Assembly: GCA_947474435.1 (NCBI GenBank)
Contig: CANJII010000008.1
Location: 64,139-102,684, forward strand
From: Chitinophagaceae bacterium
Lineage (GTDB): Bacteria > Bacteroidota > Bacteroidia > Chitinophagales > UBA10324
Direction: 5' to 3'
DNA: 38,546 bases
Shown piece after piece: positions 4,445 through 38,546 of the stretch (the stretch's first letter is position 1; every line of letters begins with the position of its first letter). The notes under the pieces were generated by a model. That model was not told the origin of the DNA. It searched no databases and was given only the letters and a program-made list of their open reading frames with translations. A program made the translations under genes and the position numbers.

Positions 4445-6361
4445 ATGAAAACGATTGGTGAATTCACTTCCGAAAAAACGATAGCAGTAAGCAAAAATAT
4501 TTTTGGCTTATTTATTCTATCTGTAATGCTTGCTTCGTGCAGCACAACCGGACAGGTTTCAAAAACACCTGATGATTTGTATTACAGTCATGCCGACCGC
4601 CAGAGTAATCAGGATAAAGTGAATCAGTATGACGCGGCTCCTCCTGTTCAGCAAGAGCAGCAACAACAACAACAGCAGGAATATGTAACTGATAACAATC
4701 AGAACTACGATACAAATACTGATAACAATAGTCAGCGTTCAGAAACTGACGCCAACGGAAATACTTACATCACCAATAATTATTATGATGGAAGCACCAG
4801 CTATGCTTATGATGATGATGATTATTACTACACCAGGAATATCCGCAGATGGTATTCGCCTTACAACGGATATAATTATTACAGCGATATTTATTGCAAT
4901 CCTTACTGGTATTCTTACAGTCCTTCTTATTATTCCTACTATCCCGGTGGATTTTCTTTCTCAATAAGTTTTGGAAATTATAATCCATGGTGGGGTTGTG
5001 CTTACAACAACTATTATTCTCCATGGTACAGTAATTATTATAATCATGGATATTACAATTATGGTTATCCATATTATGGATATGGTTGCGGAAACGGATA
5101 TGGTTATGGCGGTTATGGAAACGGATATTATAACGGGTATAACAATGGTTACTGGAATGGATACAACGACGGTTACTATGGAAACTATTATGGCTACGGA
5201 AATAATAATTACAATAACTACTACAATCCTTCTTATTACTACAGCAACGATACTTACTACGGTTCGCATTCCTATTTTGGCGGAAACACATCGAACACTA
5301 CTTATGAAACCGGTGGTTTAGGTGGAAAAACTGAAGAGACAGTTGATCATAATAACGGATTGGTTTCTCCAAGTCAGGGACAGATTTCTAACAATTCAAA
5401 TATTCAATCGAATACTGTTAGTTCACCAACTAAAGTAACTGACGCCGGAAATTTCTCAGGTAAAACTGAAGTACAGAATCAATCGCTGAATCCAAATTCA
5501 ACTACAAAACCATTGAACAATTCACAGATTCAAAATCAGCAGTTAAATTCGAATAGCAGCAACAAGTTAGACCAGCAGCAAACTCAACCTTCCAATTCAA
5601 CCACCAAACCGTTGAATAATTCTCAGATGCAAACTCAACAGCAGAATTCAAATTCTTCGAATACAAAACCTGTTCAGCAACAACAGCAAACACAGCAACC
5701 ATCCAATTCAAATTCGCAGTGGAGTAAGCCAACTCAACAGAATCAGTCACAAACTCAACAGCCAACACAGCAGCAAAATAACAGTCAGCCAAAATATACC
5801 GCACCTCAACAACAAAACAGTGCGCCTAAATACACAGCACCACAACAACAAAATAATTCAACTCCCAAGGTGATACCCCCAACACAAACGCCACAGCAAA
5901 AAACTCCGAAGCAAACTTCTTACAGCAACGGATACAATTTTCAGTCGGATTCAAATAATGGTGCTCTACAAAATTCTTACTCTCAAAAACCAACTTATCA
6001 GAATAACAATAACTCCGGAAATCAATCTCACAATCAATCGCAGCAAAATCATTCCGGTAATAATAATTCGAATCAACAATCACAACAATACAGTAAGCCT
6101 TCGAACCAAAGTTCAAATAATAATTACAGTGCACCGAAAGTTCAGCAGCAAAATTCTGCTCCGAAATATTCAGCGCCTCAGCAACAAAACTCAGCGCCAA
6201 CTTACAACAAGCCATCACAGAGTTCTTCAAACAATTCACAGAGCAATTCCGGAAGCAGTTATAAAAGTTCATCTTCAAACAATTCAGGAAGTAGTAATAA
6301 ATCTTCCTCTTCTTCCTCATCAGGAGGAACCAAGCCTTCATTCGGAAAAAGCCCTAAATAA
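4445..6361 (+). CDS. Tyr-rich and Gln/Asn-rich low-complexity lipoprotein (638 aa)
   Basis: The start is placed at the ATG at 4445 rather than the upstream GTG at 4358. The 4445 start puts a signal peptide at the N-terminus, with lipobox MLASC and Cys at residue 32. The mature protein has three zones. Residues about 45-105 are polar and Gln/Asn-rich. Residues about 106-282 are dominated by Tyr, Gly and Asn, with many YY, YGYG and NGY units and an IRRWYSP stretch. Residues about 300-600 are Gln/Asn/Ser/Pro-rich with degenerate internal repeats (NSTTKPLNNSQ twice, PKYTAPQQQN and SAPKYSAPQQQN). The tail is Ser/Gly-rich. This composition resembles prion-like or adhesive matrix proteins. The FadL-like porin gene follows after 25 bp, so they are probably one operon. 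No enzymatic domain is visible. Confidence 0.85.
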   Translation: MKTIGEFTSEKTIAVSKNIFGLFILSVMLASCSTTGQVSKTPDDLYYSHADRQSNQDKVNQYDAAPPVQQEQQQQQQQEYVTDNNQNYDTNTDNNSQRSETDANGNTYITNNYYDGSTSYAYDDDDYYYTRNIRRWYSPYNGYNYYSDIYCNPYWYSYSPSYYSYYPGGFSFSISFGNYNPWWGCAYNNYYSPWYSNYYNHGYYNYGYPYYGYGCGNGYGYGGYGNGYYNGYNNGYWNGYNDGYYGNYYGYGNNNYNNYYNPSYYYSNDTYYGSHSYFGGNTSNTTYETGGLGGKTEETVDHNNGLVSPSQGQISNNSNIQSNTVSSPTKVTDAGNFSGKTEVQNQSLNPNSTTKPLNNSQIQNQQLNSNSSNKLDQQQTQPSNSTTKPLNNSQMQTQQQNSNSSNTKPVQQQQQTQQPSNSNSQWSKPTQQNQSQTQQPTQQQNNSQPKYTAPQQQNSAPKYTAPQQQNNSTPKVIPPTQTPQQKTPKQTSYSNGYNFQSDSNNGALQNSYSQKPTYQNNNNSGNQSHNQSQQNHSGNNNSNQQSQQYSKPSNQSSNNNYSAPKVQQQNSAPKYSAPQQQNSAPTYNKPSQSSSNNSQSNSGSSYKSSSSNNSGSSNKSSSSSSSGGTKPSFGKSPK

Positions 6362-7886: not shown

Positions 7887-7921
7887 AAGTTATAAGTTGA
7901 TTTGTTGATTAGTTATTAGAA
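7887..7921. repeat. Degenerate 7-bp-periodic array (about five units)
   Basis: Directly after the porin stop codon the sequence keeps a 7-bp rhythm, with units such as AAGTTAT, AAGTTGA, ATTAGTT and ATTAGAA. It is the least regular of the arrays listed here and, being AT-rich, could arise by chance. It is included because the phase holds over five units and the location (gene end) matches other copies in the window. Confidence 0.4.
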
Positions 7922-9741: not shown

Positions 9742-9806
9742 AAATTATTTCGGAGTTTATTTTATCTGAAGTAAGCATTTCGTATTTGATTTCTCATTTT
9801 TGCGTT

Positions 9807-9848
9807 CAGATTTCAGTTAGAAATCTCAATTCATAATTCTAAAATCTA
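9807..9848. repeat. 7-bp-periodic array in the ubiD 5' leader (six units)
   Basis: Six contiguous heptads fill 9807-9848 and end 4 bp before the UbiD start codon. Examples are CAGATTT (9807), AAATCTC (9821), AATTCTA (9835) and AAATCTA (9842). The phase is unbroken. If transcribed, it would form most of the 5' untranslated region. Confidence 0.6.
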
Positions 9849-9852
9849 AAAA

Positions 9853-11808
9853 ATGTATTCCTCTCTCAGAGATTTTATAAAACAACTTGAAGATGCTGGC
9901 GAACTTGTTCGCATTAAAGAACAGGTGAATCCTGAATTAGAAATTACCGAAATCACAGATCGCATTTCAAAAAATCATGGACCGGCTTTGTTGTTTGAAA
10001 ATACCGGAACCGGAATTCCGTTTCTGATCAATGCATTTGGTTCTGAGAAAAGAATGTGCATGGCGCTAGGTGTAAATCATCTCGATGATGTAACACTTCG
10101 GATTGAAACACTTTTCAAAACGCTGATGAAACCGAAGGATAACATCATTGAGAAATTGCGCATGCTTCCGCAACTTTCACAAATGGCTTCGTGGATGCCG
10201 AAAGTAGTGAGAAGAAAAGGTGCGTGTCAGGAAGTGATAAATATGAATCCCGACATCACAAAATTTCCGGTGATGAAGTGCTGGCCCGAAGATGGCGGAC
10301 CATTTATTACACTACCTGTGATTCATACAAAAGACCCGAACACAAATATCCGCAATGTCGGTATGTATCGTATGCAGGTTTTTTCGTCCACTGTTACAGG
10401 CATGCACTGGCACAAGCACAAAGTTTCTGCGCGCCATTTTCAGGAGTATAAAAAACTCGGAATAAAAATGCCGGTTGCAGTTGCGCTCGGCGGCGATCCG
10501 GTTTATACTTATTGTGCCACTGCTCCGCTGCCCGATAATATTGATGAATACATGCTCGCCGGTTTTCTGCGAAATAAAAAAGTGGAACTGGTGCAATGCA
10601 TTACGCAGGATGTACAGGTGCCTGCCGATGCAGAAATAATTATTGAAGGGTATGTTGACCCGATGGAAGAAAATATATTGGAAGGTCCATTCGGTGATCA
10701 TACCGGTTATTATTCGCTTGCCGATTTCTATCCGAAGTTTCACATCACTTGCATCACGCATAGAAAAAATCCGATTTATCCTTCCACAATAGTTGGCATT
10801 CCTCCGCAAGAAGATGCATGGTTAGGAAAAGCAACGGAGCGAATTTTTCTCGCACCAATTAAAATGACCATGATTCTGGAAATAAAAGATATGGAATTGC
10901 CCATTGAAGGTGTGTTTCATAACCTCACCATTGTGAAAATAAAAAAAGAATATGCAGGGCAGGCAATCAAAGTTACGAATGCAATGTGGGGCGCAGGACA
11001 AATGATGTTCAATAAAATTCTGGTGATTGTGGATGAAGACATTGACATACACGATTACAAAAAAGTAGCGCAGATAATTTCAGAAAATGTTGATCCGCAA
11101 CAAGACATTTATTTTTCGCAGGGACCAATGGATGTCCTCGATCACAGTTGCAGTAAATTTTCGTTCGGAGGAAAAATGTGTGTGGATGCAACACGGAAGT
11201 TGCTGGAGGAGTTACGGGTTACGGGTTTGGAGTTTCGGGTTGATGACTCCTATAGGATTGATTCAAAAAAATTGATGAGCGATTTTTCGGAAATTGTTCA
11301 GGTGAATGATTCGTTACTTTCATTGGGAATTTCAATGGTGTTTCTTTCGGTTCAGAAAAACCGAAAAAATCATTTGAAGGAATTGAGTGAATCGCTTTTC
11401 AAAAATTCTGAATTGAATAAAGTGAAGTTTGTGATTTTTCTGGAAGCGAATGTTGATTGCTCTGATTTGAAAGATGCTGTGTGGCGGTTCACCAATAATA
11501 TTGACCCGCGGCGAGATAGTTTTATTGTTGAGCAGATACTCGATTACAAACCAAGCACAATAACAGTTGTTGGTGAAAACACCAACAACGGAGGCGATGG
11601 CATTTCACACATCGCATTCGATGGTACACGCAAAACAAAGGAGTTCGATAACTTCGATCGCGACTGGCCTAATATTTTAGCCATGGATGAAAAAACAATT
11701 CAATTAGTAGATGAAAAATGGGAGCGATACGGATTAGGGAAATTCATTTCATCACCATCGTTGAAATACAGAAAACAGCTTTATAAAGGCGGAGCAGTAG
11801 CGGAATAG
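9853..11808 (+). CDS. UbiD-family prenylated-FMN-dependent decarboxylase (651 aa)
   Basis: UbiD enzymes decarboxylate aromatic or unsaturated acids using prenylated FMN, often in quinone synthesis. Signatures: an N-terminal LRDFIKQLEDAGELVRI, GMHWHKHK near residue 183, and EGPFGDHTGYYS near residue 277. The Arg/Glu-rich catalytic area follows, and the late segment VWRFTNNIDPRRDSFI is typical of the long Bacteroidota subtype. Role by family: menaquinone-pathway or aromatic acid decarboxylation; the substrate is not decided here. The protein seems some tens of residues longer than the long forms I recall. Around residues 453-465 the coding DNA is a 7-bp-periodic array that encodes an in-frame stretch (LRVTGLEFRV) after KLLEE. 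The ATG at 9853 matches the family N-terminus. No UbiX gene is nearby. Confidence 0.9.
   Translation: MYSSLRDFIKQLEDAGELVRIKEQVNPELEITEITDRISKNHGPALLFENTGTGIPFLINAFGSEKRMCMALGVNHLDDVTLRIETLFKTLMKPKDNIIEKLRMLPQLSQMASWMPKVVRRKGACQEVINMNPDITKFPVMKCWPEDGGPFITLPVIHTKDPNTNIRNVGMYRMQVFSSTVTGMHWHKHKVSARHFQEYKKLGIKMPVAVALGGDPVYTYCATAPLPDNIDEYMLAGFLRNKKVELVQCITQDVQVPADAEIIIEGYVDPMEENILEGPFGDHTGYYSLADFYPKFHITCITHRKNPIYPSTIVGIPPQEDAWLGKATERIFLAPIKMTMILEIKDMELPIEGVFHNLTIVKIKKEYAGQAIKVTNAMWGAGQMMFNKILVIVDEDIDIHDYKKVAQIISENVDPQQDIYFSQGPMDVLDHSCSKFSFGGKMCVDATRKLLEELRVTGLEFRVDDSYRIDSKKLMSDFSEIVQVNDSLLSLGISMVFLSVQKNRKNHLKELSESLFKNSELNKVKFVIFLEANVDCSDLKDAVWRFTNNIDPRRDSFIVEQILDYKPSTITVVGENTNNGGDGISHIAFDGTRKTKEFDNFDRDWPNILAMDEKTIQLVDEKWERYGLGKFISSPSLKYRKQLYKGGAVAE
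11211..11245. repeat. 7-bp-periodic array inside the ubiD coding sequence (five units)
   Basis: Five exact-phase heptads: GTTACGG at 11211 and again at 11218, then GTTTGGA, GTTTCGG and GTTGATG. The heptad frame (7) is not a multiple of 3, so the repeats are read in all three codon frames, which argues against origin by protein-level repetition. The units match those at 19991-20025 read on the other strand (TACGGGT and TTCGGGT). Confidence 0.7.
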
Positions 11809-11825
11809 AAAAGGAAATGTTGGAT

Positions 11826-11856
11826 CTACCTACCGCAAACTGCCTGCTGCAAACCG
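11826..11856. repeat. 7-bp-periodic array after ubiD (four units plus a partial)
   Basis: Heptads CTACCTA (11826), CCGCAAA (11833), CTGCCTG (11840) and CTGCAAA (11847), with a partial CCG, start 18 bp after the UbiD stop codon and run into a T-rich stretch. The region is GC-richer than the intergenic average. It may act at transcript ends, but no clear hairpin is seen. Confidence 0.6.
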
Positions 11857-11864
11857 ATTTTTTT

Positions 11865-11882
11865 GTTAACCTTTACTTAACA
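11865..11882 (+). promoter_or_regulatory. Pho-box-like direct repeat upstream of the response regulator gene
   Basis: GTTAACC (11865) and CTTAACA (11876) share a TTAAC core and are spaced 11 bp start to start (7-4-7). This is the geometry of PhoB/PhoP-type direct repeats. It lies about 32 bp upstream of the -7 element, a suitable position for activation or autoregulation. Confidence 0.45.
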
Positions 11883-11913
11883 TTAATCATCTCAGCCACA
11901 TTCTATACTCCAT

Positions 11914-11921
11914 TACTTTTG
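11914..11921 (+). promoter_or_regulatory. Bacteroidota -7 promoter element (TACTTTTG) of the two-component operon
   Basis: A perfect TAnnTTTG followed by C. The response regulator ATG is only 7 bp downstream, so the transcript would be leaderless or nearly so. No good TTTG is present at the usual -33 spacing, which fits an activator-dependent promoter. Confidence 0.5.
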
Positions 11922-11928
11922 CCCGCAG

Positions 11929-12609
11929 ATGGAAAAAAATAATTTCAAAATATTAGTGGTGGATGATGAACCGGATATTGTCGAGTTCATTGCTTACAAT
12001 CTGAAGAAGGAAGGATACGATGTATGTACCGCCAATGATGGGTTAGATGGAATTAAAATTGCTGAAAAAGAAAAACCTGATTTAATTATTCTCGACATCA
12101 TGATGCCGCGACTTGATGGAGTGGAAACCTGTGAGCATCTTCGTCGCAATCCGATGTTTAAAAATACTTTGATTGTTTTTCTCACGGCGCTTGGTGATGA
12201 GCAATCAGAAATTAAAGGACTGAATGCCGGAGCTGATGATTATATAGTTAAGCCGATCAAACCCAAATTATTATTATCAAGAATTAATGCACTGTTAAGA
12301 AGATTGCAACCTTCAGAAGTGCCAGGAAAAAATCAAATCGGTGATTTTATTATTGACATGGAACAATATCTCGTGCATTATAAAAACGAACATTACTCAC
12401 TGCCACGAAAAGAATTTGAACTGCTGAATCTACTGACCTCAAAACCCGGTAAAGTTTTTCATCGCGATGAAATTCTGAATAAGGTTTGGGGTACTGAAGT
12501 AATTGTAGGCGACCGGACAATTGATGTTCATATCCGGAAACTGCGTCAGCGTTTTGGAGATGATCACATCGTAACAGTTAAAGGAATCGGATACAAATTC
12601 GATTCGTAA
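11929..12609 (+). CDS. OmpR/PhoB-family response regulator
   Basis: This is a cytoplasmic DNA-binding regulator of a two-component system. The receiver domain spans residues about 6-120. It has the acidic pair D12-D13, the phospho-acceptor D56 (in LIILDIMMP), a Thr in FLTAL and the conserved Lys in YIVKPIKP. The C-terminal winged helix (about 133-226) shows LPRKEFELLNLL, GKVFHRDEILNKVWG, RTIDVHIRKLRQR and KGIGYKF, the standard OmpR/PhoB trans-activation fold. At 226 aa it is full length. The histidine kinase gene follows after 56 bp. The TTAAC direct repeat upstream and the PhoB-like sequence make phosphate or envelope control possible, but no pst or pho genes are in the window to confirm it. 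Confidence 0.93.
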   Translation: MEKNNFKILVVDDEPDIVEFIAYNLKKEGYDVCTANDGLDGIKIAEKEKPDLIILDIMMPRLDGVETCEHLRRNPMFKNTLIVFLTALGDEQSEIKGLNAGADDYIVKPIKPKLLLSRINALLRRLQPSEVPGKNQIGDFIIDMEQYLVHYKNEHYSLPRKEFELLNLLTSKPGKVFHRDEILNKVWGTEVIVGDRTIDVHIRKLRQRFGDDHIVTVKGIGYKFDS

Positions 12610-12665
12610 TTAATCGTTAGTTAATTGATTCGTTTCATTCAATCTCTCTTTGCAGATTTGCGTAA

Positions 12666-13694
12666 ATGAAAAATCCAAGACCATCTATACTCTCATTATA
12701 TTCAAGTTTTGCAGTTGCTGTAATTTCTGCCTTGGTGGCAATAATGATTTCAGTTAATTGGGTAGATATTTTAATTATTTTCGTTTCAGTATTTATCGTT
12801 GGATACATCGTATTTTTTTATGTTTTGCAGATATTTATTTACCGGAAAATAAAATTGGTTTACAAATCCATTCATCATTTGAAAGCCGGAAAAGAAGAAC
12901 CTACATTAAAAGAAAGATTAAATGAAGATCCGCTCGAAATGGTGAACAAAGAAGTGATTGAATGGGAACACGAGAAGGTAATAGAAATTGAACAACTCAA
13001 AAAACTTGAAGTTTATCGTAAAGAGTTTGTGGCAAATGTTACACACGAATTAAAAACTCCGCTCTTCAGCATTCAGGGATACATTCATACTTTGTTGGAT
13101 GGCGCGTTGGAAGATGAAGCAGTAAATAAAATGTTTCTGGAAAAAGCTTCGCGCAATGTTGACCGGCTCACCAATCTGATTGCTGATCTGGAAGTGATCA
13201 CACAATTAGAATCAGGTAGTTATAGTCTGGAGCAAGAAGTATTTGACATTCACATGCTCACACAAGATGTTTTTGATTCGTTGGAATTTAAAGCAAGTGC
13301 ACGGAAAATTTCGTTATCATTTAAAAAAGGTTGCGACCAGCCATTTTATGTTTTTGCCGATAAAGAAAAAATCCGACAGGTATTAATTAATCTCCTCGAC
13401 AATTCAATCAAGTACGGAAAAGAAAGCGGAAACACCATTATAAGTTTTTATGAAATGGATGAAAACCTTTTGATGGAAATTACCGATGATGGAAATGGAA
13501 TTGATGAACACCACCTCATTCGTTTATTCGAGCGATTCTATCGTGCCGACAAAAGTCGCTCGCGCGATATTGGCGGAACCGGTTTGGGATTATCAATTGT
13601 AAAACACATTGTTGAAGCGCACAATCAAACCATTAATGTGCGAAGCACGGTTGGAGTTGGAACCACTTTCGGGTTTACTCTTTTGAGGAAATAA
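12666..13694 (+). CDS. PhoR-like membrane sensor histidine kinase
   Basis: The sensor partner of the preceding regulator. Two hydrophobic segments (residues about 10-31 and 34-58) lie almost back to back, leaving little or no periplasmic domain, so it probably senses within the membrane or through partners. After a charged linker come the dimerisation box NVTHELKTPL with His127, the N box (INLLDNSIKYG), the G1 box (DDGNGID), the F box (FERFYRADKSRSR) and the G2 box (GGTGLGLSIVKHIV). No PAS domain is seen. The length of 342 aa agrees with short PhoR-like kinases of Bacteroidota. A TTTGC-containing stretch just before the ATG might act as a weak second promoter. Confidence 0.92.
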   Translation: MKNPRPSILSLYSSFAVAVISALVAIMISVNWVDILIIFVSVFIVGYIVFFYVLQIFIYRKIKLVYKSIHHLKAGKEEPTLKERLNEDPLEMVNKEVIEWEHEKVIEIEQLKKLEVYRKEFVANVTHELKTPLFSIQGYIHTLLDGALEDEAVNKMFLEKASRNVDRLTNLIADLEVITQLESGSYSLEQEVFDIHMLTQDVFDSLEFKASARKISLSFKKGCDQPFYVFADKEKIRQVLINLLDNSIKYGKESGNTIISFYEMDENLLMEITDDGNGIDEHHLIRLFERFYRADKSRSRDIGGTGLGLSIVKHIVEAHNQTINVRSTVGVGTTFGFTLLRK

Positions 13695-13824
13695 TTTCAA
13701 TAAGTTTCGTTAAAATATATTATTCAACTAATTTTTTGCATTCAACTTGAATTCAAATTTCCATTTGTCATTGCTTTGTCAAAATCCAATTGAATGATTT
13801 AAGTTATAAGCATTAGGGATTATA

Positions 13825-13845
13825 CAGAGGTAAATTTGCCCTCTG
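13825..13845 (+). promoter_or_regulatory. Promoter (-7 TAAATTTG) enclosed by an inverted repeat, hmu-like operon
   Basis: A perfect TAnnTTTG at 13831-13838, followed by C, lies exactly between CAGAGG (13825-13830) and CCTCTG (13840-13845), which are reverse complements. A dimeric repressor bound there would cover the polymerase contact. The first gene starts 18 bp further on. Heme/iron-dependent repression is an inference from the operon content. Confidence 0.5.
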
Positions 13846-13862
13846 AAAAAACAAAAACCACA

Positions 13863-15131
13863 ATGAAAAAATTACTTACACTTTCTGTTGTTCTCCTCAC
13901 TTCAGTAAGCATTTATGCCCAAACTGCTGTTTACGATTCAGTTATTATGGGAGCAGGATATGCAAATCAGGTTTGGTATAATATGACCAGCGGTGAAGTG
14001 TCGCAAACACCAAATAATAACTGGGACCTTGCATTTACTACTTACTTTATGGGCGCAAGTGCCTACATCAATTCAGCACAAGGTGTTGCGCTTTATGCCA
14101 TTCCGAATACTGACATTTCAGGATTTGCAACAGTAATTGATACAACAGGATATGAAGGCTGGCAATCATTAAATAATTCTGATACCACCTGGAACAAAGG
14201 AGCCTTTAATCAGAACATGGGAAATTTCCCGAATTATGGTTGGGGAACTTATGATAATGTAACACATGAAGTTACAGGCGACTCTTTGTTTTTAGTGCGT
14301 ACCGGAATGAACCCGAATTATGAATTCAAAAAATTATGGGTAATAAAAAAAGATGTCAGTGGAAACTGGATTATCAGATCTGCAAATATTGATAACAGCA
14401 ACGATGTAACCGACACCATTTTGTACAGCAGTTATTCAGGAAAAAATTTCTCTTATTATTCTTTGAGCAATCAGGCAGATTTAAATCGTGAACCCTTAAC
14501 TACAGATTGGGATATAACTTTTGCCCGTTATACAGCAAATGTTTTAACTACCTCCTGCATTCCGGCAACAGGATATTTTTCAGTAACAGGAGTTTTGCAA
14601 AATAAAAAAGTAGTAGCCGCACAGGCCGATGGCGAAGATTTTTCCACCGTTGATTTTGCAAGTTATCAAAGCCAGTTGGATTCAAATATTTCTACCATTG
14701 GTTTTGATTGGAAGTGTTCTGGGGTGCTTACAGCTAATGTTGTTTACTTTATTAAATCAAATTCAGCAGAAATCTGGAAAGTACAATTTACTGAACCCGC
14801 ACCAACCGGTGCAACCGGAAAAATATTTTTTATGAAAGAATCGTTGGCAACCGGAATTTCTCCATTGAATGAAACAATAAATTCAATTTCTGTTTATCCG
14901 AATCCTGCTACTGGTAATGCATCACTCATTGTTGATGCAAAAAAATCAGGCACTGCATCATTCAGCATTTTCAATACTGTTGGTGCGTTGATTGATAATC
15001 AATCAACATATTTGAAACAGGGAATGAATGTTATTGCAATAAATACCGAATCGCTTGCTAATGGAATTTATTTCATTAACAATTCAAATGAAAAAAATTC
15101 AGAAGTATTGAAATTAATAATTGCCCGATAA
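13863..15131 (+). CDS. HmuY-family heme-binding protein with T9SS sorting domain (422 aa)
   Basis: HmuY proteins capture heme at the cell surface and pass it to a TonB-dependent receptor. The domain is recognised by the V-MGAGYANQVWY opening near residue 20 and two blocks NNWDLAFTTY and TDWDITFARY, which the lipoprotein paralogue two genes downstream also has (SWDLAFETS, KWDILFTRY). The start is the ATG at 13863, which begins a clean signal peptide (MKKLLTLSVVLLTSVSIYAQ); an upstream TTG at 13836 falls inside the promoter. Residues about 345-422 (VYPNPATGNASL onward, GIYFINN near the end) are a T9SS type A sorting domain. That predicts export through T9SS instead of lipid anchoring. It is the first gene of a three-gene operon, with a 23-bp gap to the receptor. 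Heme specificity is inferred. Confidence 0.88.
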   Translation: MKKLLTLSVVLLTSVSIYAQTAVYDSVIMGAGYANQVWYNMTSGEVSQTPNNNWDLAFTTYFMGASAYINSAQGVALYAIPNTDISGFATVIDTTGYEGWQSLNNSDTTWNKGAFNQNMGNFPNYGWGTYDNVTHEVTGDSLFLVRTGMNPNYEFKKLWVIKKDVSGNWIIRSANIDNSNDVTDTILYSSYSGKNFSYYSLSNQADLNREPLTTDWDITFARYTANVLTTSCIPATGYFSVTGVLQNKKVVAAQADGEDFSTVDFASYQSQLDSNISTIGFDWKCSGVLTANVVYFIKSNSAEIWKVQFTEPAPTGATGKIFFMKESLATGISPLNETINSISVYPNPATGNASLIVDAKKSGTASFSIFNTVGALIDNQSTYLKQGMNVIAINTESLANGIYFINNSNEKNSEVLKLIIAR

Positions 15132-15154
15132 AAAATTGGTGAAATACTAAGTTG

Positions 15155-17377
15155 ATGAACCGGATTAAAACAATTGGATTTTTTTTATTGTCGCTTGTAA
15201 CCGTTGTGCAAACTTTTGCGCAACAGCAAGCGACAATAAAAATTTTTGATTCTCAAAATCATCAGCCATTAACAGGAGTTGTAGTTGTTGCAGAAAATAT
15301 TTCCAACAAGCAAATTGTTGGAATTTCTGATGAAGATGGATTATCAAAACTGCAGATTCTTCCACCGTGTTCAATTACCCTTCACTTTATCGGATACAAT
15401 GAAATGAAATTTCAGTTGATTGGAAATGATACCACAATAAACCTTTCTCCGGCTGAAAATAATTTGAATGAAGTGGTTGTAACCGGCGAATACAATTTAA
15501 CAACAAGTGATAAATCGGTTTACAATATTCGGGTGATTGATGCGAAAGAAATTGAAGCCAAACAATCAAGCAGTCTGGCTGATTTATTAAATACACAATT
15601 GAATATCCGGTTGTCGCAAGACAATATTCTCGGAACAGGTTTAAGCATAAACGGATTGAATGGTCAGAACATAAAAATTCTGATTGATGGTGTTCCGGTT
15701 ATCGGAAGAGAAAACGGAAACATTGACCTCTCTCAGATTTTATTATCAACTGTTGAGCGGATTGAATTGATTGAAGGCCCCATGAGTTCGATGTACGGAA
15801 CTGATGCTATTGGCGGATTGATTAACATCATCACCAAACAAAGTTCAAAAAACACATCTGAAGGAAATGCAAATGCGTTGTATGAATCTGTTGGCCGTTA
15901 TAATTTTGATGGAAATGTTTTTTTCAAAATGGGTTCTGATCATTTCTCGGCCAACGGAGGACGAAATTTTTTCGATGGGTTCAGTAATCCTGATACCGGA
16001 AGATGGCAGCAATGGAAACCTTATGAACAACATTTTTTCGGATTGGCTTATGGTTTGAAATCTCGATTTACCGATTTGCAATTGAAGGCTGATTACTTTC
16101 ATCAAACATCACAAAACAAAGGCGAAGCTGTAATTACTCCTTATGAAGCATATGCATTTGATGAATATTATTTAACCGACCGTTGGAATATTACTTTGTT
16201 GCAATCGGTTCGACTTACACACAATCTGAAATTGGATTTAACGAATGCCTTTTCAAATTACAGCCGCATCAGAAATACTTACCGCAAAGATTTGGTTTCG
16301 CTTACTCAGGAACTAATTCCACTAACAAGCATGCAGGATTCAACTTTGTTTGAAGCATTTGCGTTCAGAGGAAGTATCAGTAAAGTATTAGCAGTAAATA
16401 ATTTCAGTTACCTCGCAGGTTACGATATCAATATTGAAAATGGAAGCGGACAAAAATTATTGAATCATAAACAGGCAATAGAAGATTATGCTGCCTTCGG
16501 AAGTTTGCAATGGAAAATAAATAAATTCACTTTGCGCCCGGCGCTTCGGTATGCTTTCAACACACGCTATTCTGAACCCATAATTCCATCGTTGAATTTT
16601 GTTTTCAATGCAAATAATAATTGGGCGTTGCGTTTAAGTTACTCACGCGGATTCAGAGCACCATCATTAAAGGAAATGGATTTATATTTTGTAGATGTCA
16701 ATCACAACATTCATGGAAATCCTGATTTGAAAGCCGAAGATTCACATCACTTTTTATTTTCAACTAACTACACTAAAAAAATTGAGCAGTCTGTTATTCA
16801 ACTTAAAGGAGCACTTGCTTACAACAACATTCACAACATCATTACACTTGCGCTTACCAATTCTTCGCAACTGTTTTACACTTACATCAACATTGATAAT
16901 TATCAAACGGCTGTTGGTTCCATTGAAGCCGATTATCAATTTCAATCATTCAGTTTCAACAGCGGATTTTCGTTAACCGGTCTGTACAATTCACTTTCAG
17001 CAACAGATAATTCTGTTCCTAAATTTTCCTATTCACCTGAATGGAACTCTCAACTTTCATTCGAACTGAAAAAACTGAACATGCAAATGAACATTCAGTT
17101 GAAAGCCACCGGAACAACACTTGGTTATGCGTTGGATGACAGTTCAAATGTGTATCAAAACCAAATCAGTTCGTACACCATGCTGGATGCCGGAATGACA
17201 AAAAATTTTCTGAAAAAAAGAATTTCAATTTCATTTGGCGGAAAAAATTTATTGAATGTGGTGAACATCAACAGCACTCTTGTTGGTGGAATTCATTCTG
17301 ACAACAACGGAACTGTTCCTAACAGTTGCGGACGATTTGCTTACATTAAACTTGCTTTTAAATTTTACAATCAATAG
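15155..17377 (+). CDS. TonB-dependent outer-membrane receptor, probable heme receptor (HmuR-like, 740 aa)
   Basis: This protein imports its ligand across the outer membrane using TonB energy. The ATG at 15155 is used; a TTG directly before it is less likely. After a signal peptide ending FAQ comes a carboxypeptidase-regulatory-like beta domain (about 25-90). A plug domain follows (about 110-235) with ILIDGVPVIG, VERIELIEGPMSSMYGTDAIGG and INIITK, and then a 22-strand-type barrel to the C-terminal phenylalanine-rich strand. FRAP at residues 500-503 and NPDL at 522-525, with His517 and His520 between them, form the FRAP/NPxL box with histidine known from heme receptors such as HmuR and HemR. 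HmuY genes lie 23 bp upstream and 17 bp downstream. Ligand: heme, with good but indirect support. Confidence 0.9.
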   Translation: MNRIKTIGFFLLSLVTVVQTFAQQQATIKIFDSQNHQPLTGVVVVAENISNKQIVGISDEDGLSKLQILPPCSITLHFIGYNEMKFQLIGNDTTINLSPAENNLNEVVVTGEYNLTTSDKSVYNIRVIDAKEIEAKQSSSLADLLNTQLNIRLSQDNILGTGLSINGLNGQNIKILIDGVPVIGRENGNIDLSQILLSTVERIELIEGPMSSMYGTDAIGGLINIITKQSSKNTSEGNANALYESVGRYNFDGNVFFKMGSDHFSANGGRNFFDGFSNPDTGRWQQWKPYEQHFFGLAYGLKSRFTDLQLKADYFHQTSQNKGEAVITPYEAYAFDEYYLTDRWNITLLQSVRLTHNLKLDLTNAFSNYSRIRNTYRKDLVSLTQELIPLTSMQDSTLFEAFAFRGSISKVLAVNNFSYLAGYDINIENGSGQKLLNHKQAIEDYAAFGSLQWKINKFTLRPALRYAFNTRYSEPIIPSLNFVFNANNNWALRLSYSRGFRAPSLKEMDLYFVDVNHNIHGNPDLKAEDSHHFLFSTNYTKKIEQSVIQLKGALAYNNIHNIITLALTNSSQLFYTYINIDNYQTAVGSIEADYQFQSFSFNSGFSLTGLYNSLSATDNSVPKFSYSPEWNSQLSFELKKLNMQMNIQLKATGTTLGYALDDSSNVYQNQISSYTMLDAGMTKNFLKKRISISFGGKNLLNVVNINSTLVGGIHSDNNGTVPNSCGRFAYIKLAFKFYNQ

Positions 17378-17394
17378 ACTTTAATTTATAAACG

Positions 17395-18447
17395 ATGATT
17401 TTGCGCTTTCGATTTTTATTTTTTGCTCTTATGGTTTCTCTGTTCGCATCTTGTTTTAAAAAAGATGAAGCAATTGTTTTACAACCACCCGGAAATGTTG
17501 AAGTGGACCAGGTTGCAATGGGTGCTGATTATGTGAATCAGATTTATTATCAGCTATCAACAAAGGAATCCTTTGTAAGCGACCACAGAAGTTGGGATTT
17601 AGCTTTTGAAACTTCAACTTCCGGATATCATATCTGGATAAATGGCAGCAATCAGATTTTTGTAGCTAATACATATAATTCAAATTTCAATTACATCAAT
17701 GACACCATCGGAGCAAACTGGAAATGGGATGCAAGCAGTTGGCATAAAGATTCTACTGCAATAGGAGATTGGGTAAACACAAATCCACCGGATCCTACTG
17801 TTGCTTCTGAAATTCCATTTAATTCAGCTCCAGGAAAAATTGAGGAAATGGAAGCATCTACAGGAGTTTATCTGATTGACCTTGGCCCTGATATGGCTGC
17901 TACTGAAAGATTTAAAAAGGCAGTGTTTGAAACAGTTGATCATTTTCAATACACATTTAAGTATTCCAATTTAGATAACTCTGATTTGCATGAAATCACT
18001 ATTCAAAAAGAACCTGCCTATGCTTATACTTATTTTAGCATTCGCAACAATAATCAGGTTGTTTATCCCGAACCCATAAAACCAAAATGGGATATTTTAT
18101 TTACACGATACCGTACCATTTTATATTCAGGGGGCACCATGCTTCATTATCCTGTAACAGGAGTTTTAATTAATCCGGAAGGATACAGTGTTGCAATAGA
18201 TTCAACAATTGAATTCAGTACAATTGATTATGCATTCGCAAAAAATTTAAACTATCAATCCAATCGCGATGTGATTGGCTATAACTGGAAACACTATTTA
18301 TTTACACCACCTTTATATGAAGTTTCGTCATACATAAATTATATTATTAAAGATAACAAAGGCTATTACTGGAAACTTCATTTCATTGGATTTAATAATG
18401 ATCAGGGAGTTAAAGGGTATCCGCAATTTGAGTATCAGCGGTTGTAA
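17395..18447 (+). CDS. HmuY-family lipoprotein (350 aa)
   Basis: A second hemophore-like protein in the same operon. The signal peptide ends in lipobox LFASC (Cys20), so it is lipid-anchored, in contrast to the T9SS-exported paralogue. The HmuY pattern is clear: VAMGADYVNQIYYQL near residue 40, HRSWDLAFETS, KPKWDILFTRY, and YNWKHYLF-type aromatic strands near the end. Homology to the first gene runs along the whole domain. It has no C-terminal sorting domain. Its last 38 bp overlap the 3' end of the oppositely oriented KirBac gene, so the two transcripts are antisense there and no separate terminator fits between them. Role: periplasm- or surface-facing heme capture or relay (inferred). Confidence 0.86.
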   Translation: MILRFRFLFFALMVSLFASCFKKDEAIVLQPPGNVEVDQVAMGADYVNQIYYQLSTKESFVSDHRSWDLAFETSTSGYHIWINGSNQIFVANTYNSNFNYINDTIGANWKWDASSWHKDSTAIGDWVNTNPPDPTVASEIPFNSAPGKIEEMEASTGVYLIDLGPDMAATERFKKAVFETVDHFQYTFKYSNLDNSDLHEITIQKEPAYAYTYFSIRNNNQVVYPEPIKPKWDILFTRYRTILYSGGTMLHYPVTGVLINPEGYSVAIDSTIEFSTIDYAFAKNLNYQSNRDVIGYNWKHYLFTPPLYEVSSYINYIIKDNKGYYWKLHFIGFNNDQGVKGYPQFEYQRL

Positions 18448-19405
18448 TTAACTCGGGCAGCTCTGCATGTTCAAAATCAGAAATACGATCAAGGTAATGA
18501 TGCGTGTATCCAGCTGCCTGATTGATTTCGAAATTTCGGATAAATTTTGCACCCCATATAATTTCATCAAAGCGATACGAAAACCGTGTGTGCACATGCT
18601 GCGAAAAAGTTTCGTCATACGCTTTTATAAAAACAAGAATCTCTACATCAGCTTTTTCTAAATCTTCTTTTGTCCATCCATATACCGGGCTCTTTTCATT
18701 TATCGGATGCACGATTGTCCACGACAAAGGAAAGAAGCGAATCATTTTCACTTCCAGTTCCATTGGATAAAATCTCCGTATCGGGCCGCCGGGTTCTTCA
18801 TTCATTAATGATATTGTAACCGACACTTCCACTTCGTTAAGAATATTGCGGCGCATGTTGGCAATGCGAAACATTAAACCTCGCTGTGTGATTTTATAAG
18901 GAGCCATTAATGCAATGGCACTATGAATAATTTTTGCCTGAGGTCTGCTGAATCTTCCATAAAGTAAACCGGTTGCCAATGCAAATGATAACAAACCAAC
19001 CAGCGATTCAACAGCGGCTACAGCACTCGCCCAAAAACCATGCGGACTGATTCTTCCATAACCAACAGTAGTGAGTGTTTGCGCACTGAAGAAAAATGCA
19101 TCCAAACATTTTGTTGACTCCGAAGTCATATCTGTTCCCGGAAAATGATTGGCGCCAATGAAAAAATAAATGGTGGCAAAAAAAGAATTGATAATTAAAA
19201 AACCAATGAACACCATCACACTGAATTTTGCCCAAGGCATCATGATGAGGTGATTGTAAATATCATAAGAACGGAAAAACGGAAGCCCGATGTTCTTTAC
19301 ATTGAAATCGCCATTCTCATTTACGGCGCGGTTGCGCTGCGCATTATTACTGAACCCGCTGTCGGTAATTTCTTTTTGATTTTGCGGAGATGATTTTTTA
19401 CTCAT
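18410..19405 (-). CDS. KirBac-type inward rectifier potassium channel
   Basis: This is an inner-membrane K+ channel subunit (tetramer by family). Residues about 60-82 form the outer helix. The pore helix and selectivity filter TTVGYGR are at 112-118. The inner helix spans about 125-150 and contains Glu133, followed by the gate region FSRPQAKI. The cytoplasmic half has the immunoglobulin-like Kir domain: GLMFRIANMRRN, EVEVSVTISL, FYPMELEVKMIRFFPLSWTIVHPI and YRFDEIIWGAKF are hallmark strands. At 331 aa it is complete; the N-terminal 40 residues are polar. It is last in a minus-strand series after gyrB and the PepSY-like gene (46 bp gap). It converges on the HmuY lipoprotein gene with a 38-bp overlap. 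Confidence 0.95.
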   Translation of the reverse strand: MSKKSSPQNQKEITDSGFSNNAQRNRAVNENGDFNVKNIGLPFFRSYDIYNHLIMMPWAKFSVMVFIGFLIINSFFATIYFFIGANHFPGTDMTSESTKCLDAFFFSAQTLTTVGYGRISPHGFWASAVAAVESLVGLLSFALATGLLYGRFSRPQAKIIHSAIALMAPYKITQRGLMFRIANMRRNILNEVEVSVTISLMNEEPGGPIRRFYPMELEVKMIRFFPLSWTIVHPINEKSPVYGWTKEDLEKADVEILVFIKAYDETFSQHVHTRFSYRFDEIIWGAKFIRNFEINQAAGYTHHYLDRISDFEHAELPELITTADTQIADTL

Positions 19406-19451
19406 GATATTTTATTAAGTAGAATAAAATTAAAATACTTTTTATAAGGTT

Positions 19452-19934
19452 TTATTCCTCCTCCACTTTACTCACAAAATTTCCATCGGCATCAAAAGAA
19501 TAGGTGAAAATTCTGCCAGTGTTTCTTACTAACGAATAATATTCAATCCCTTTCCGGGTTTCTGATTTATAATAGCCGGTAATTTTTCCACCGGCAGTAT
19601 TTGAAGTGAGATAAGTAATTGCAGCAACAGGAAATTCTTCAGGTTTCAGTTTCGTATCGGTGCTTATCCAGTCGCCCATCGCCATGGCATATAATACAGT
19701 AACAGAATGTTTGTCTAATGAAAAAGTAGTTTCCAAAAATCCGGGACCTGGTTGAATCCAAACTACAGCACCTGCAGTTGGAAATTTTTCAGCAAAATGT
19801 TTCTTAACTGTTTCCGGAATCAGTTTGTTGTCTATCGGAAGTTGTGCGAAACACTTCGATGAACTCAGTATGACAAACAATATGAAGAGTGAAAAACTAA
19901 GGACTAAGAATGCACTAAGGAGTTTTGGGTTCAT
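19452..19934 (-). CDS. Secreted PepSY-like domain protein (160 aa)
   Basis: The start is taken at the ATG at 19934 (MNPKLLSAF), which gives a standard signal peptide with cleavage after CFA. An ATG 36 bp further upstream at 19970 would add a charged leader. The mature part (about residue 30 on) has the outline of the periplasmic PepSY-like family of Bacteroidota: IPETVKKHFAEKFPTA near the start, then AVVWIQ, W-STDTKLKPEEFP and a terminal DADGNFV. The function of the family is poorly known (binding or inhibition rather than catalysis). The first ~30 codons are written in repeat-like DNA (see repeats at 19851-19875 and 19896-19960). This is odd, and the signal peptide may be recently acquired. 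It lies 92 bp downstream of gyrB. Confidence 0.72.
   Translation of the reverse strand: MNPKLLSAFLVLSFSLFILFVILSSSKCFAQLPIDNKLIPETVKKHFAEKFPTAGAVVWIQPGPGFLETTFSLDKHSVTVLYAMAMGDWISTDTKLKPEEFPVAAITYLTSNTAGGKITGYYKSETRKGIEYYSLVRNTGRIFTYSFDADGNFVSKVEEE
19851..19875. repeat. REP-like dispersed repeat fragment
   Basis: The segment reads CTTCG at 19854 and CTCAGTATGACA at 19864. It resembles a short dispersed repeat (CTTCGAC...CTCAGTATGACA) that I recall from many bacterial genomes. Here it encodes the end of the PepSY-like signal peptide (SSSKCFAQ region). Recognition is from memory and a genome count is needed. Confidence 0.4.
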
Positions 19935-19960
19935 GGTTTCGAGTTTTGAGTTAGTTACGC
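19896..19960. repeat. 7-bp-periodic array across the start and signal-peptide codons of the PepSY-like gene (about nine units)
   Basis: Heptads in near-continuous phase: ACTAAGG (19896) and ACTAAGA (19903), then from 19919 GGAGTTT, TGGGTTC, ATGGTTT, CGAGTTT, TGAGTTA and GTTACGC to 19960. The start codon at 19932-19934 lies within it. The later units are complementary in type to those at 19991-20025, so the two arrays can pair over about 12 bp. Confidence 0.65.
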
Positions 19961-19990
19961 GCTTCGGCAAATTTATTTCAGTTTATAAAA

Positions 19991-20025
19991 ACCCGAAACA
20001 ACAAACCCGAAACCCGTAACCTGAA
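19991..20025. repeat. 7-bp-periodic array between gyrB and the PepSY-like gene (five units)
   Basis: ACCCGAA at 19991 and 20005, with ACAACAA between them, then ACCCGTA (20012) and ACCTGAA (20019). The array ends 1 bp before the gyrB stop codon. Read on the minus strand it gives TTCGGGT/TACGGGT units, the same words as the array inside ubiD. Confidence 0.7.
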
Positions 20026-20026
20026 A

Positions 20027-21991
20027 TTAAATATCAAGCTTTGCATACTTCGCATGCTTCTCAATAAATTCTCTGCGAGGCGGGACATCGTCGCCCATCA
20101 GCATTGAGAAAATATGGTCCGACTCAGCGGCACTTTCAATAGATACCTGTTTCAATGTGCGTGTTTCAGGATTCATGGTGGTTGACCACAATTGTTCAGC
20201 ATTCATTTCTCCAAGACCCTTGTATCTCTGAATGCCAACTGAATCATCTTTTCCTCCACCAATTCGAGCCACGGCAGCTTTACGGTCATCATCGTTCCAG
20301 CAATATTCCTGTTCTTTTCCTTTCTTCACTAAATAAAGCGGAGGCGATGCGATATAAATGTGTCCGCGCTCAATCAGCAATTTCATGTAGCGGAAAAAGA
20401 AAGTAAGAATCAAAGTAGTGATGTGACTTCCGTCCACATCAGCATCCGTCATGATTATGATTTTATGGTAACGGAGTTTATCAATGTTCAATGCTTTGTC
20501 ATCTTCTTTTGTTCCGATACTCACACCCAATGCTGTGAAAATATTTTTTATTTCCTCGTTGTCGTAAATCTTGTGCTCCATTGCCTTCTCAACATTCAGA
20601 ATTTTTCCGCGCAATGGAAGTATCGCCTGAAATGCACGGTTACGACCTTGCTTGGCTGTACCACCCGCCGAATCTCCTTCGACTAAATAAATTTCACATT
20701 GAGAAGCATCGTTGTTTGAACAGTCGGCAAGTTTGCCGGGCAATCCACTTCCCGACATTCCGTTTTTGCGCTGAACCAATTCTCTCGCTTTGCGCGCAGC
20801 ATTTCGTGCAGTGGCTGAAAGAATTACTTTGTTCACCATCATCTTCGCCTCCTTCGGATTTTCTTCAAGGAAATGAGTAAGGAAATCGCTGACAGCAGAA
20901 TCTACTATTCCGGTTACTTCAGAATTACCGAGTTTCGATTTTGTTTGACCTTCAAATTGTGGTTCAGGAACTTTGCATGAAACAACAGCCGTTAACCCTT
21001 CACGGAAATCATCTCCGGTTACTTCAAAATTTAATTTATCTAATAATTTATTCTTATCGGCATAGGATTTAAACACGCGGGTAATAGCGCGACGAAAACC
21101 TGCAATGTGAGTTCCGCCTTCAATGGTGTTGATGTTGTTTACATATGAAAATACATTCTCGGTATAACCGGTGTTGTACTGCATGGCCACTTCCACAATC
21201 ACATTATCCTTTGTGCCTTCCATGTAAATCGGTTCAGCATTCATTGCCTCACGAGTGCCATCGAGATATTTTACAAACTCTTTCAATCCCAATTCAGAAT
21301 AAAATCTTTCGCTGAACACATTTCCGTTCTCATCAATATTTCTTTTATCAGAAAGAGTAATTGCAATTCCACGATTCAAGAAAGACAACTCGCGCATACG
21401 AGTTGCAATAGTATCATACTTGTATTCCAGAATTTTGAAGATGGAACCATCAGGTACAAAAGTTACTTCGGTTCCTGTTATAGCAGCATCGCCAACCACT
21501 TTAACCGGATACAAGGGTTTACCGATTTCATATTCCTGCATCCACTCTTTTCCATCACGAAAAACACGAACCGTAAGGTGGCTCGAAAGTGCATTCACAC
21601 AACTCACGCCTACACCATGCAATCCGCCAGAAACTTTATAAGTGTCTTTATCAAATTTTCCTCCGGCATGCAGCACAGTCATCACCACCTCAAGCGCGCT
21701 TTTATTTTCGCCTTTGTGATGTCCGGTTGGAATACCACGACCATCATCCAACACGGTGATTGAATTATCTTCATTGATGGTGACGAAAATATTTTTGCAA
21801 TATCCCGCCAGCGCTTCATCAATCGAATTGTCAACTACTTCGTAAACTAAATGGTGTAAACCGCGAAACCCGATGTCGCCGATATACATTGCCGGGCGCA
21901 TCCGAACTGCTTCTAAACCTTCGAGAACCTGAATGTTCTCCGCCGTGTATTCACTTGATTTTTTCTTTTCCAAAGTTGCTTCTTCTAACAT
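20027..21991 (-). CDS. gyrB: DNA gyrase subunit B
   Basis: The ATPase subunit of gyrase, which introduces negative supercoils with GyrA. The order of domains is complete. The GHKL ATPase begins near residue 20 with LEAVRMRPAMYIG and contains VYEVVDNSIDEALAGY, DDGRGIP and GGLHGVGVS. The transducer domain follows, with QTKSKLGN. The Toprim domain has YLVEGDSAGG, LRGKILNVEKA and MTDADVDGSHI. The protein ends with QRYKGLGEMN and PPRREFIEKHA. At 654 aa it is the short Bacteroidota form without the long E. coli insertion. The ATG at 21991 is preceded by a TAnnTTTG element. A 7-bp-periodic array begins 1 bp after its stop codon. gyrA is not in the window. Confidence 0.98.
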   Translation of the reverse strand: MLEEATLEKKKSSEYTAENIQVLEGLEAVRMRPAMYIGDIGFRGLHHLVYEVVDNSIDEALAGYCKNIFVTINEDNSITVLDDGRGIPTGHHKGENKSALEVVMTVLHAGGKFDKDTYKVSGGLHGVGVSCVNALSSHLTVRVFRDGKEWMQEYEIGKPLYPVKVVGDAAITGTEVTFVPDGSIFKILEYKYDTIATRMRELSFLNRGIAITLSDKRNIDENGNVFSERFYSELGLKEFVKYLDGTREAMNAEPIYMEGTKDNVIVEVAMQYNTGYTENVFSYVNNINTIEGGTHIAGFRRAITRVFKSYADKNKLLDKLNFEVTGDDFREGLTAVVSCKVPEPQFEGQTKSKLGNSEVTGIVDSAVSDFLTHFLEENPKEAKMMVNKVILSATARNAARKARELVQRKNGMSGSGLPGKLADCSNNDASQCEIYLVEGDSAGGTAKQGRNRAFQAILPLRGKILNVEKAMEHKIYDNEEIKNIFTALGVSIGTKEDDKALNIDKLRYHKIIIMTDADVDGSHITTLILTFFFRYMKLLIERGHIYIASPPLYLVKKGKEQEYCWNDDDRKAAVARIGGGKDDSVGIQRYKGLGEMNAEQLWSTTMNPETRTLKQVSIESAAESDHIFSMLMGDDVPPRREFIEKHAKYAKLDI

Positions 21992-38398: not shown

Positions 38399-38546
38399 TG
38401 GAAAATCCGGTGATACTGACCACCTGAAACCGATTTAAACTGACCACTGAAAACCGGAGCAAACTGACCAGCAGAATCCGGTTCAAACTGACCACCCTTT
38501 TTAACATGTTGTGTGTGTAAGATTCTGTCATAGGCGACGGCAAGGG
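38399..38546. mobile_element. End of an IS21-family insertion sequence (runs off window)
   Basis: From about 38399 (a TG dinucleotide, as expected for an IS21 terminus) the DNA changes to GC-richer sequence. It contains regularly spaced ACTGACCA motifs, the hallmark of IS21-type multiple terminal repeats bound by the IstA transposase. No istA or istB coding sequence is reached before the window ends at 38546, so orientation is unresolved. The exact boundary could be anywhere from about 38399 to 38411. Confidence 0.72.
38415..38494. repeat. Four ACTGACCA motifs at exact 24-bp spacing (IS21-type terminal repeats)
   Basis: ACTGACCA begins at 38415, 38439, 38463 and 38487. Between copies, CCGG or CCGA sits 15 bp into each unit (38430, 38454, 38478). 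A further CCGG at 38407 marks a partial outermost unit. Confidence 0.93.

Follow-up and report, generated by a model that had tools for sequence, protein, structure and literature searches.

Short, direct, degenerate arrays with a period of 7 bp recur across the genome of a Chitinophagaceae bacterium and in some of its relatives, and we think it reasonably probable that they are a dispersed class of heptad-periodic DNA elements, with many unit families per genome, that spreads by block copying together with slippage. The arrays were noticed in a 38.5 kb stretch of this genome (hereafter the window: contig C8, positions 64139-102684, of genome G000, which comprises 3.52 Mb in 98 contigs). They exceed chance expectation, multi-unit blocks recur at separate places, they lie near gene borders more often than expected and with a strand polarity, in-frame copies occur in essential genes, and the same sites differ among congeners. 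The class is a Bacteroidota version of a kind of heptamer repeat already published for Xanthomonas, cyanobacteria, and Beggiatoa, and the arrays are probably selfish or neutral.

Six stretches of the window had been listed as 7-bp arrays in an earlier note made from the sequence, and three of them are clear in a local scan for self-matches at lag 7. The first (9777-9851, plus strand, score 14) spans the 9807-9848 listed earlier and ends 1 nt short of the ATG (9853) of a ubiD-family decarboxylase gene (9853-11808). The second, a TTACGGG/TTTCGGG array (11211-11241, plus strand, score 14), lies within a variable linker of that gene, where it translates in frame as ELRVTGLEFRV. The third, a TTTCGGG array (19989-20026, minus strand, score 13), lies directly 3′ of the stop codon of gyrB (20027-21991, minus strand). 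The words TACGGGT and TTCGGGT are visibly common to the ubiD-family gene and the minus strand beside gyrB, as the note had pointed out. The fraction of positions matching at lag 7 is 0.71 for 11211-11245, 0.68 for 19991-20025, 0.60 for 9807-9848, and 0.50 for each of the other three stretches: 19896-19960 holds a weak TTTTGGG/TTTCGAG array below the scan threshold; the ACTGCCT-like stretch 11826-11856 (plus strand), 3′ of the ubiD-family gene, lies in a gap that scores just 4 and is not above chance alone; and 7887-7921 (plus strand) fits a lag of 8 better (0.56), so that a 7-bp array is not confirmed there and the stretch is not counted as one. Sequence inspection and a tandem-repeat scan found no set of identical repeats separated by differing spacers of one fixed length, in keeping with the earlier judgment that this is not CRISPR.

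Abundance and unit families

The query TTTCGGGTTTCGAGTTT gives 110 matches in G000 at up to three mismatches, against 14 for a reversed control. At up to two mismatches it gives 14-43 matches, with clearly fewer control matches, in seven of 60 relatives, and 0-3 in most genomes. The local scan was run at a threshold score of at least 12 for the window and for the pooled border counts below, with the chance level taken from block-wise Markov shuffles; the shuffle expectation at this threshold is 4.7 segments per 439 kb, or about 0.4 per window. For the comparison of genomes, low-complexity segments were filtered out and two shuffles were used. Real and shuffled counts of lag-7 segments are 21 and 3.5 in 439 kb of G000 (rule-chosen stretches plus the window), 24 and 6.0 in G004 and 21 and 3.0 in G005 (per 400 kb; two of the five congeners G001-G005), and 67 and 0.5 in 387 kb of G035, which belongs to a different family of the same order (20 stretches, two of them chosen at already known matches). 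Lags 14 and 21 are also raised, triplet lags are raised as coding DNA predicts, and lags 5, 10, and 11 are at about chance level. A dispersed, genome-wide class, as suspected in the earlier note, is thus borne out by query matches, local scan, and lag counts, all above their controls. Chance or low-complexity A+T-rich DNA is an extremely improbable source: two of the listed stretches do not exceed chance alone and the mean autocorrelation lacks a peak at 7, but the excess over shuffles persists after removal of low-complexity segments, which, with the TTTCGGGTTTCGAGTTT counts, refutes chance for the class.

Arrays have a median length of 33 bp (quartiles 30-42, n=133), or about four to six units. 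The unit families of G000 include TTTCGGG/TTTCGAG, TTAGCTG/TTAGCAA, GTGAATG, AATCTGC, CTGCCTA, and others, and those of G035 include AAGACAC, GGACCAT, CTTGATA, AATAACC, and GTTACGG. This variety bears on the idea that non-B DNA is the selected feature, for example the G-quadruplexes proposed for GGGAATC repeats in the cited part of PMC4692102. The GGG of TTTCGGG arrays is regularly spaced, but the TTAGCTG, GTGAATG, AATCTGC, AAGACAC, and CTTGATA families of the same genomes lack GGG, and families without G runs make G-quadruplexes a most unlikely general cause.

Recurring blocks and paired copies

Blocks of several units, irregularities included, recur at separate places. The 26-bp block ACCCGAAACAACAAACCCGAAACCCG, which contains an odd AACAACA unit, is found exactly at window positions 19991-20016, at C4:136255 of the same genome, and at C19:11019 of G005, and with up to three mismatches at 19 places in five of nine genomes, the window's ubiD-family array among them (control, 0). 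The CTTGATA 30-mer CTTGATACTTGATACTCGCTACTTGATACT, with an odd third unit, has 55 matches in G035 and 52 in G048 at up to three mismatches, compared with none in five other genomes searched and none for the control. This recurrence bears out the earlier statement that sites share related units. It also bears on purely local growth, in which polymerase slippage acts on chance 7-bp repeats at each place and nothing moves between places; slippage has been offered as an explanation for heptanucleotide repeats (Mrazek 2007, as quoted in passages of PMC4679880 and PMC4692102). Local growth would account for the long near-perfect arrays that occur (AATAACC in L171, 1-84; TCTTGTG in L179, 95-173) and for unit families that vary between sites and species. 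It does not readily explain why one irregular block recurs unchanged in two species and at unlinked sites, or why tens of copies of a 30-mer keep the same odd third unit, and we consider it unlikely as the whole explanation.

Some copies are paired. Among 14 close pairs of CTTGATA blocks, 11 are in −/+ arrangement at 82-170 bp, three are on the same strand, and none is +/− (all 55 matches of G035 and 23 of the 52 of G048 were entered, the remainder being lone or overlapping same-strand matches). One of 30 fetched copies of the 30-mer lies within called coding sequence. In 17 of the other 29 the same end is no more than 20 nt from a gene border (12 starts, 5 stops), compared with one for the other end; these copies are not independent, since some are neighbors or lie at the same gene in G035 and G048. 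Four paired 30-mers compared together with their spacers match mainly at the arrays, with further heptad-like similarity (L304/L310), so there is no clear common body. Across all families, 26 of 158 arrays have an inverted partner within 250 bp that outscores 30 random places, where about five are expected; 14 arrays have a direct partner and 132 have no inverted one. Inverted partners as a general rule were therefore rejected, being confined to a minority of arrays.

Position and polarity at gene borders

Gene borders were predicted with a purpose-built, simple hexamer-based caller. In 0.92 Mb of G000, partly stretches selected where matches were known, 67 arrays were kept, 42 intergenic and 25 in called coding sequence. 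Thirty-five of the 42 have a start or stop no more than 15 nt away, compared with 752 of 2342 random intergenic placements; 20 are near a start, six of these also near a stop, and the stop side is equally common. Pooled over four genomes at a score of at least 12, the distance to the nearest border is at most 15 nt for 77 of 124 intergenic arrays, against 2230 of 6718 random placements (33%; p = 8e-11), with 29/33 in G000, 11/16 in G004, 7/13 in G005, and 30/62 in G035. The earlier claim that all arrays sit at gene edges or in genes is an overstatement, with 7 of 42 intergenic arrays in G000 and 32 of 62 in G035 lying farther than 15 nt from a border.

The arrays are also oriented. We defined polarity by C versus G on the sense strand for arrays adjoining exactly one border, leaving out ties and any array that is coding or adjoins two borders. 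The ratio of C-rich to G-rich arrays is 23:2 on the start side and 8:31 on the stop side (p = 1.4e-8), such that the strand with C exceeding G reads into the adjacent gene from either end. The pattern is carried by G000 (11:0 and 2:10) and G035 (7:1 and 3:18), with 4:0 and 1:2 in G005.

Position and polarity could be functional if the arrays were selected RNA elements, acting on the start side as leader or ribosome-binding context and on the stop side as 3′-end or terminator hairpins; MacGregor 2015 suggests such an RNA role for TAACTGA repeats in the cited part of the paper (PMC4679880). Besides border proximity and polarity, the excess of inverted partners agrees with this, as does the gap 3′ of gyrB, whose RNA is predicted to fold better than shuffles (z −2.4; 4 of 200 shuffles equally good). 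There, the units of 19896-19960 are opposite in orientation to the AAACCCG units of 19989-20026 (inverted alignment score 15, control mean 9.2, yet one of 20 control places scores 25). However, the predicted stem pairs the gyrB-side array with the edge of the second stretch and bypasses its TTTCGAG units, 132 of 158 arrays lack an inverted partner and 14 have a direct one, unit families change or go missing at orthologous borders, called coding sequence holds 25 of the 67 arrays of G000, and base composition upstream of 703 start codons has no period-7 phase, the region being merely A-rich. We therefore regard selected RNA elements as an improbable general explanation. Two further conjectures are that arrays might serve as Rho loading sites for transcription that comes into a gene from elsewhere, and that arrays of the stop side might pair in trans with those of the start side.

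Differences among congeners and arrays within genes

The window's sites were compared with their orthologues in the congeners, as the earlier note had proposed, and the same sites turn out to have an array, no array, or an array of another unit family. The gap 5′ of the ubiD-family gene has a shorter array in G005 (score 12) and none in G003 (4). In the gap 3′ of this gene, G004 has ATTGTCA units (score 15) and G005 has GTGAATA units (13), with scores of 3 in G003 and 5 in G001. In the ubiD-family linker, the TTTCGGG-family array of G000 is shared with G002, G004 has a lag-7 array of other units (score 14), and G001 and G003 have neither an array nor a palindrome. Since the linker array is common to G000 and G002, with substitutions between the two, the suggestion that the class is "actively" spreading is unsupported. 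The G005 linker (L073) has, where the window has its heptad array, an in-frame CCTCCCCAAAGGGGAGG palindrome (CCTCCCC/GGGGAGG), so the same linker accepts unrelated repeat elements.

Within 200 nt 3′ of gyrB, all five congeners have a lag-7 segment scoring at least 12, of differing kinds: CTGCCTA-type units in G002 and A+T-rich segments in the other four, two of which are raised at lag 6 too. In the orthologues of window positions 19851-20040 in G001, G003, G004, and G005 (L095, L096, L098, and L099), the gene that follows gyrB has a leader and a signal-peptide coding sequence that together make up an inverted repeat spanning its start codon; this repeat is A+T-rich and has a period of roughly 7.

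Arrays also lie inside other protein genes of G000: valS (L033, 6957-9614), nrdA (L141, 4927-5541), and the genes at L038, 6233-7513, and L037, 9421-10548. The valS array encodes LQTKTLNSKPETQNPKPET, and ValS has 885 residues compared with 875 aligned in G001, G003, and G004 and 878 in G005. In the ribonucleotide reductase alpha subunit NrdA, the C-terminal linker of G000, G004, and G005 exceeds that of G003 by about 40 residues, and G001 has an even shorter one. ValS and the ubiD-family protein (TIGR03701) exceed their NCBIfam cut-offs, and the reductase fragment does not reach those of its family. The arrays of these genes read as NSKPETQNPKPET-like or EFRVSGFEFQV-like peptides, and similar stretches are seen in a type 9 sorting-domain protein and a glycosyltransferase-like protein.

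A model of spread and the points against it

Under the reading of a dispersed class spread by block copying and slippage, a new array would arise when a block is copied to a new place, and its units would then expand, contract, and homogenize through slippage or recombination. Copies would survive mainly at gene borders and in variable protein linkers, and single copies may become parts of leaders, start-codon surroundings, or 3′-end hairpins. Polarity could stem from selection near starts, from the insertion process, or from both, and selection that disfavors G and structure close to start codons perhaps adds to it.

Several observations weigh against this reading. Copying is deduced from the recurring blocks, and no copying event was observed; moreover, some ACCCGAAACAACAAACCCGAAACCCG matches are regular AAACCCG arrays (for example, at C1:137399 of G000) and several CTTGATACTTGATACTCGCTACTTGATACT matches in G048 overlap one another along longer regular arrays. 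Background accounts for some of the polarity, since random placements at borders show the same tendency (622:352 on the start side and 361:470 on the stop side), although less strongly than the arrays (p = 0.0025 and 0.0045), and G004 has no polarity (1:1 and 2:1). The gene calls are simple and home-made, and some stretches of G000 and G035 were selected at known matches. The mean autocorrelation of intergenic DNA, the measure suggested in the earlier note, shows just a small local peak at 14 and none at 7; the class is thus invisible by that measure and required the local scan. Other lags are raised too: lag 8 in G000 (10 segments against 4.0 in shuffles) and G035 (18 against 0.5), lag 9 in G035 (14 against 0.0), and lag 22 in G000 (10 against 2.0). 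Finally, 80 Bacteroidota gyrB loci (L204-L283, 600 kb) have 14, 16, and 13 segments at lags 7, 8, and 9, and five of the 14 lag-7 segments come from congeners. A general 7-bp dominance across Bacteroidota is therefore absent from these loci, and the dominance is a property of some lineages rather than of the whole phylum.

One lead to a copying agent is the solitary Y1 (HUH) transposase gene. All 10 genomes that are rich or moderately rich in the TTTCGGG family have strong, near-full-length Y1_Tnp matches (at least 75 bits), compared with 21 of the 50 others (p = 0.0009). The figures are 7 of 7 against 24 of 53 with a stricter cut (p = 0.011) and 5 of 5 against 4 of 11 within family f1 (p = 0.034); these cut-offs were chosen after viewing the data, ancestry is uncorrected, and richness is judged by the TTTCGGG family alone. 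Strong Y1 genes are located at C23:47407 and C83:3532 of G000, at C1:82217, C2:178217, and C10:667434 of G035, and on C39 and C44 of G048. Y1 subclass 1.2 is described in the cited part of PMC6006769 as low in copy number, generally without insertion-sequence ends, and mostly from Cyanobacteria and Bacteroidetes. A Y---Q--HH signature marks this subclass. It is conceivable, though doubtful, that heptad blocks are copied into single-stranded DNA at gene borders by a low-copy IS200-like Y1 transposase that has no insertion sequence of its own. This would be a palindrome-free counterpart of the REP/RAYT system and would unite the heptamers of Bacteroidota and Cyanobacteria, and perhaps those of Xanthomonas and Beggiatoaceae. 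If so, one mobile system would also seed leaders, 3′ hairpins, and protein linkers. A Y1 motif search of 361 sequences found one class-2-like (RAYT-like) gene, in L174 (G035 C5, near 3604-3822); the sole lag-7 array scoring at least 11 in L174 is at 13426-13455, about 10 kb from this gene. Reverse transcriptase was rejected as the agent, RVT_1 being found in two of 15 genomes and not in G000.

Relation to published repeats

The earlier note had allowed that the class might already be described, and its kind is indeed published (PMC4692102; PMC4679880), although our search, which was confined to the open-access literature with subscription papers outside it, listed no paper devoted to these unit families in Chitinophagales. 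Comparisons here refer to the cited parts of each paper. The GGGAATC/GGGGA(C/T)T heptamers of Xanthomonas and, in part, Nostoc have the same architecture (Rehm 2015, PMC4692102): arrays of about four units, which the lengths found here match; a G strand that is the non-coding strand upstream and the coding strand downstream of genes, matched by the pooled polarity, with G004 unbiased; and convergent inverted pairs, matched by the −/+ CTTGATA pairs, with few pairs in Nostoc. The GGGAATC/GGGGA(C/T)T unit is not among the units read here, and no dedicated search for it was made. Unlike those systems, the present one has many coexisting families, most without GGG, in Bacteroidota hosts, with in-frame arrays in valS and nrdA and copied blocks that retain odd units.

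Direct TAACTGA repeats are reported from Beggiatoaceae, some Cyanobacteria, and five Bacteroidetes (MacGregor 2015, PMC4679880). They too are heptamer arrays, some inside open reading frames, with other heptamers alongside in some Bacteroidetes and absence from relatives. They often lie a few nucleotides upstream of a start in one orientation. However, that system has one dominant unit, whereas here stop-side arrays and paired blocks are prominent and TAACTGA is not enriched: TAACTGATAACTGA has five matches in G000 with up to one mismatch, against four for the reversed control, and no exact match in the nine genomes searched. Among long repeat units, seven is the favored length in many genomes (Mrazek 2007, quoted in both PMC4679880 and PMC4692102), and the cyanobacterium Calothrix has heptanucleotide repeats, several per genome (cited in PMC4692102). 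Both sets are defined by perfect or near-perfect tandem copies, whereas many of the present arrays are degenerate. The Calothrix repeats are presumably those known as STRR.

REP/RAYT systems (PMC3733652; PMC6006769) likewise comprise short many-copy intergenic repeats, often oppositely paired and some within genes, in genomes with Y1 genes. REPs are palindromic, whereas the arrays here are direct tandem heptads whose inverted copies stand separately, about 80-170 bp apart, and no transposase gene was seen flanked by arrays in the sequence compared, which excludes the flanks of the strong Y1 genes. Rickettsia palindromic elements have in-frame copies at tolerant places in conserved protein genes and are palindromic and longer than the present arrays. 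The in-frame insertions in ValS and NrdA, seen against congeners, are like these, but by sequence the present arrays consist of direct heptads. Scattered bacteria are known to have heptamer repeats, for which there is no agreed cause; the many families, recurring blocks, polarity, and in-frame copies in essential enzymes argue against one-unit explanations such as G-quadruplexes or a single RNA-binding motif, and the mode of spread becomes testable among close relatives.

Further observations

The stretch 19896-19960 surrounds the start codon (complement of 19932-19934) of a minus-strand gene at 19452-19934, and the box TAAATTTG (19968-19975, minus strand) was seen by inspection between the two opposed arrays. 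On the minus strand the order is gyrB stop, TTTCGGG array, box, CTCAAAA/CTCGAAA units, and ATG; the box presumably resembles the Bacteroidota −7 promoter box. At another gyrB locus (L266), opposed ATTCCGG-type arrays lie at 2785-2808 and 2858-2881. The closest named records to the window by GyrB are metagenome-assembled genomes labeled Bacteroidota bacterium (BJGQ01000031.1, 99%), Chitinophagaceae bacterium (CANIPU010000006.1, 98%, and JAHEZG010000065.1, 97%), and Chitinophaga pinensis (two, 97% and 94%). An Rfam scan of the window found just one tRNA. A Gln/Asn/Tyr-rich open reading frame at 4448-6361 contains 36-bp tandem repeats at 5780-5853 and 6244-6312, and a 24-bp tandem repeat lies near the window's end at 38415-38496.

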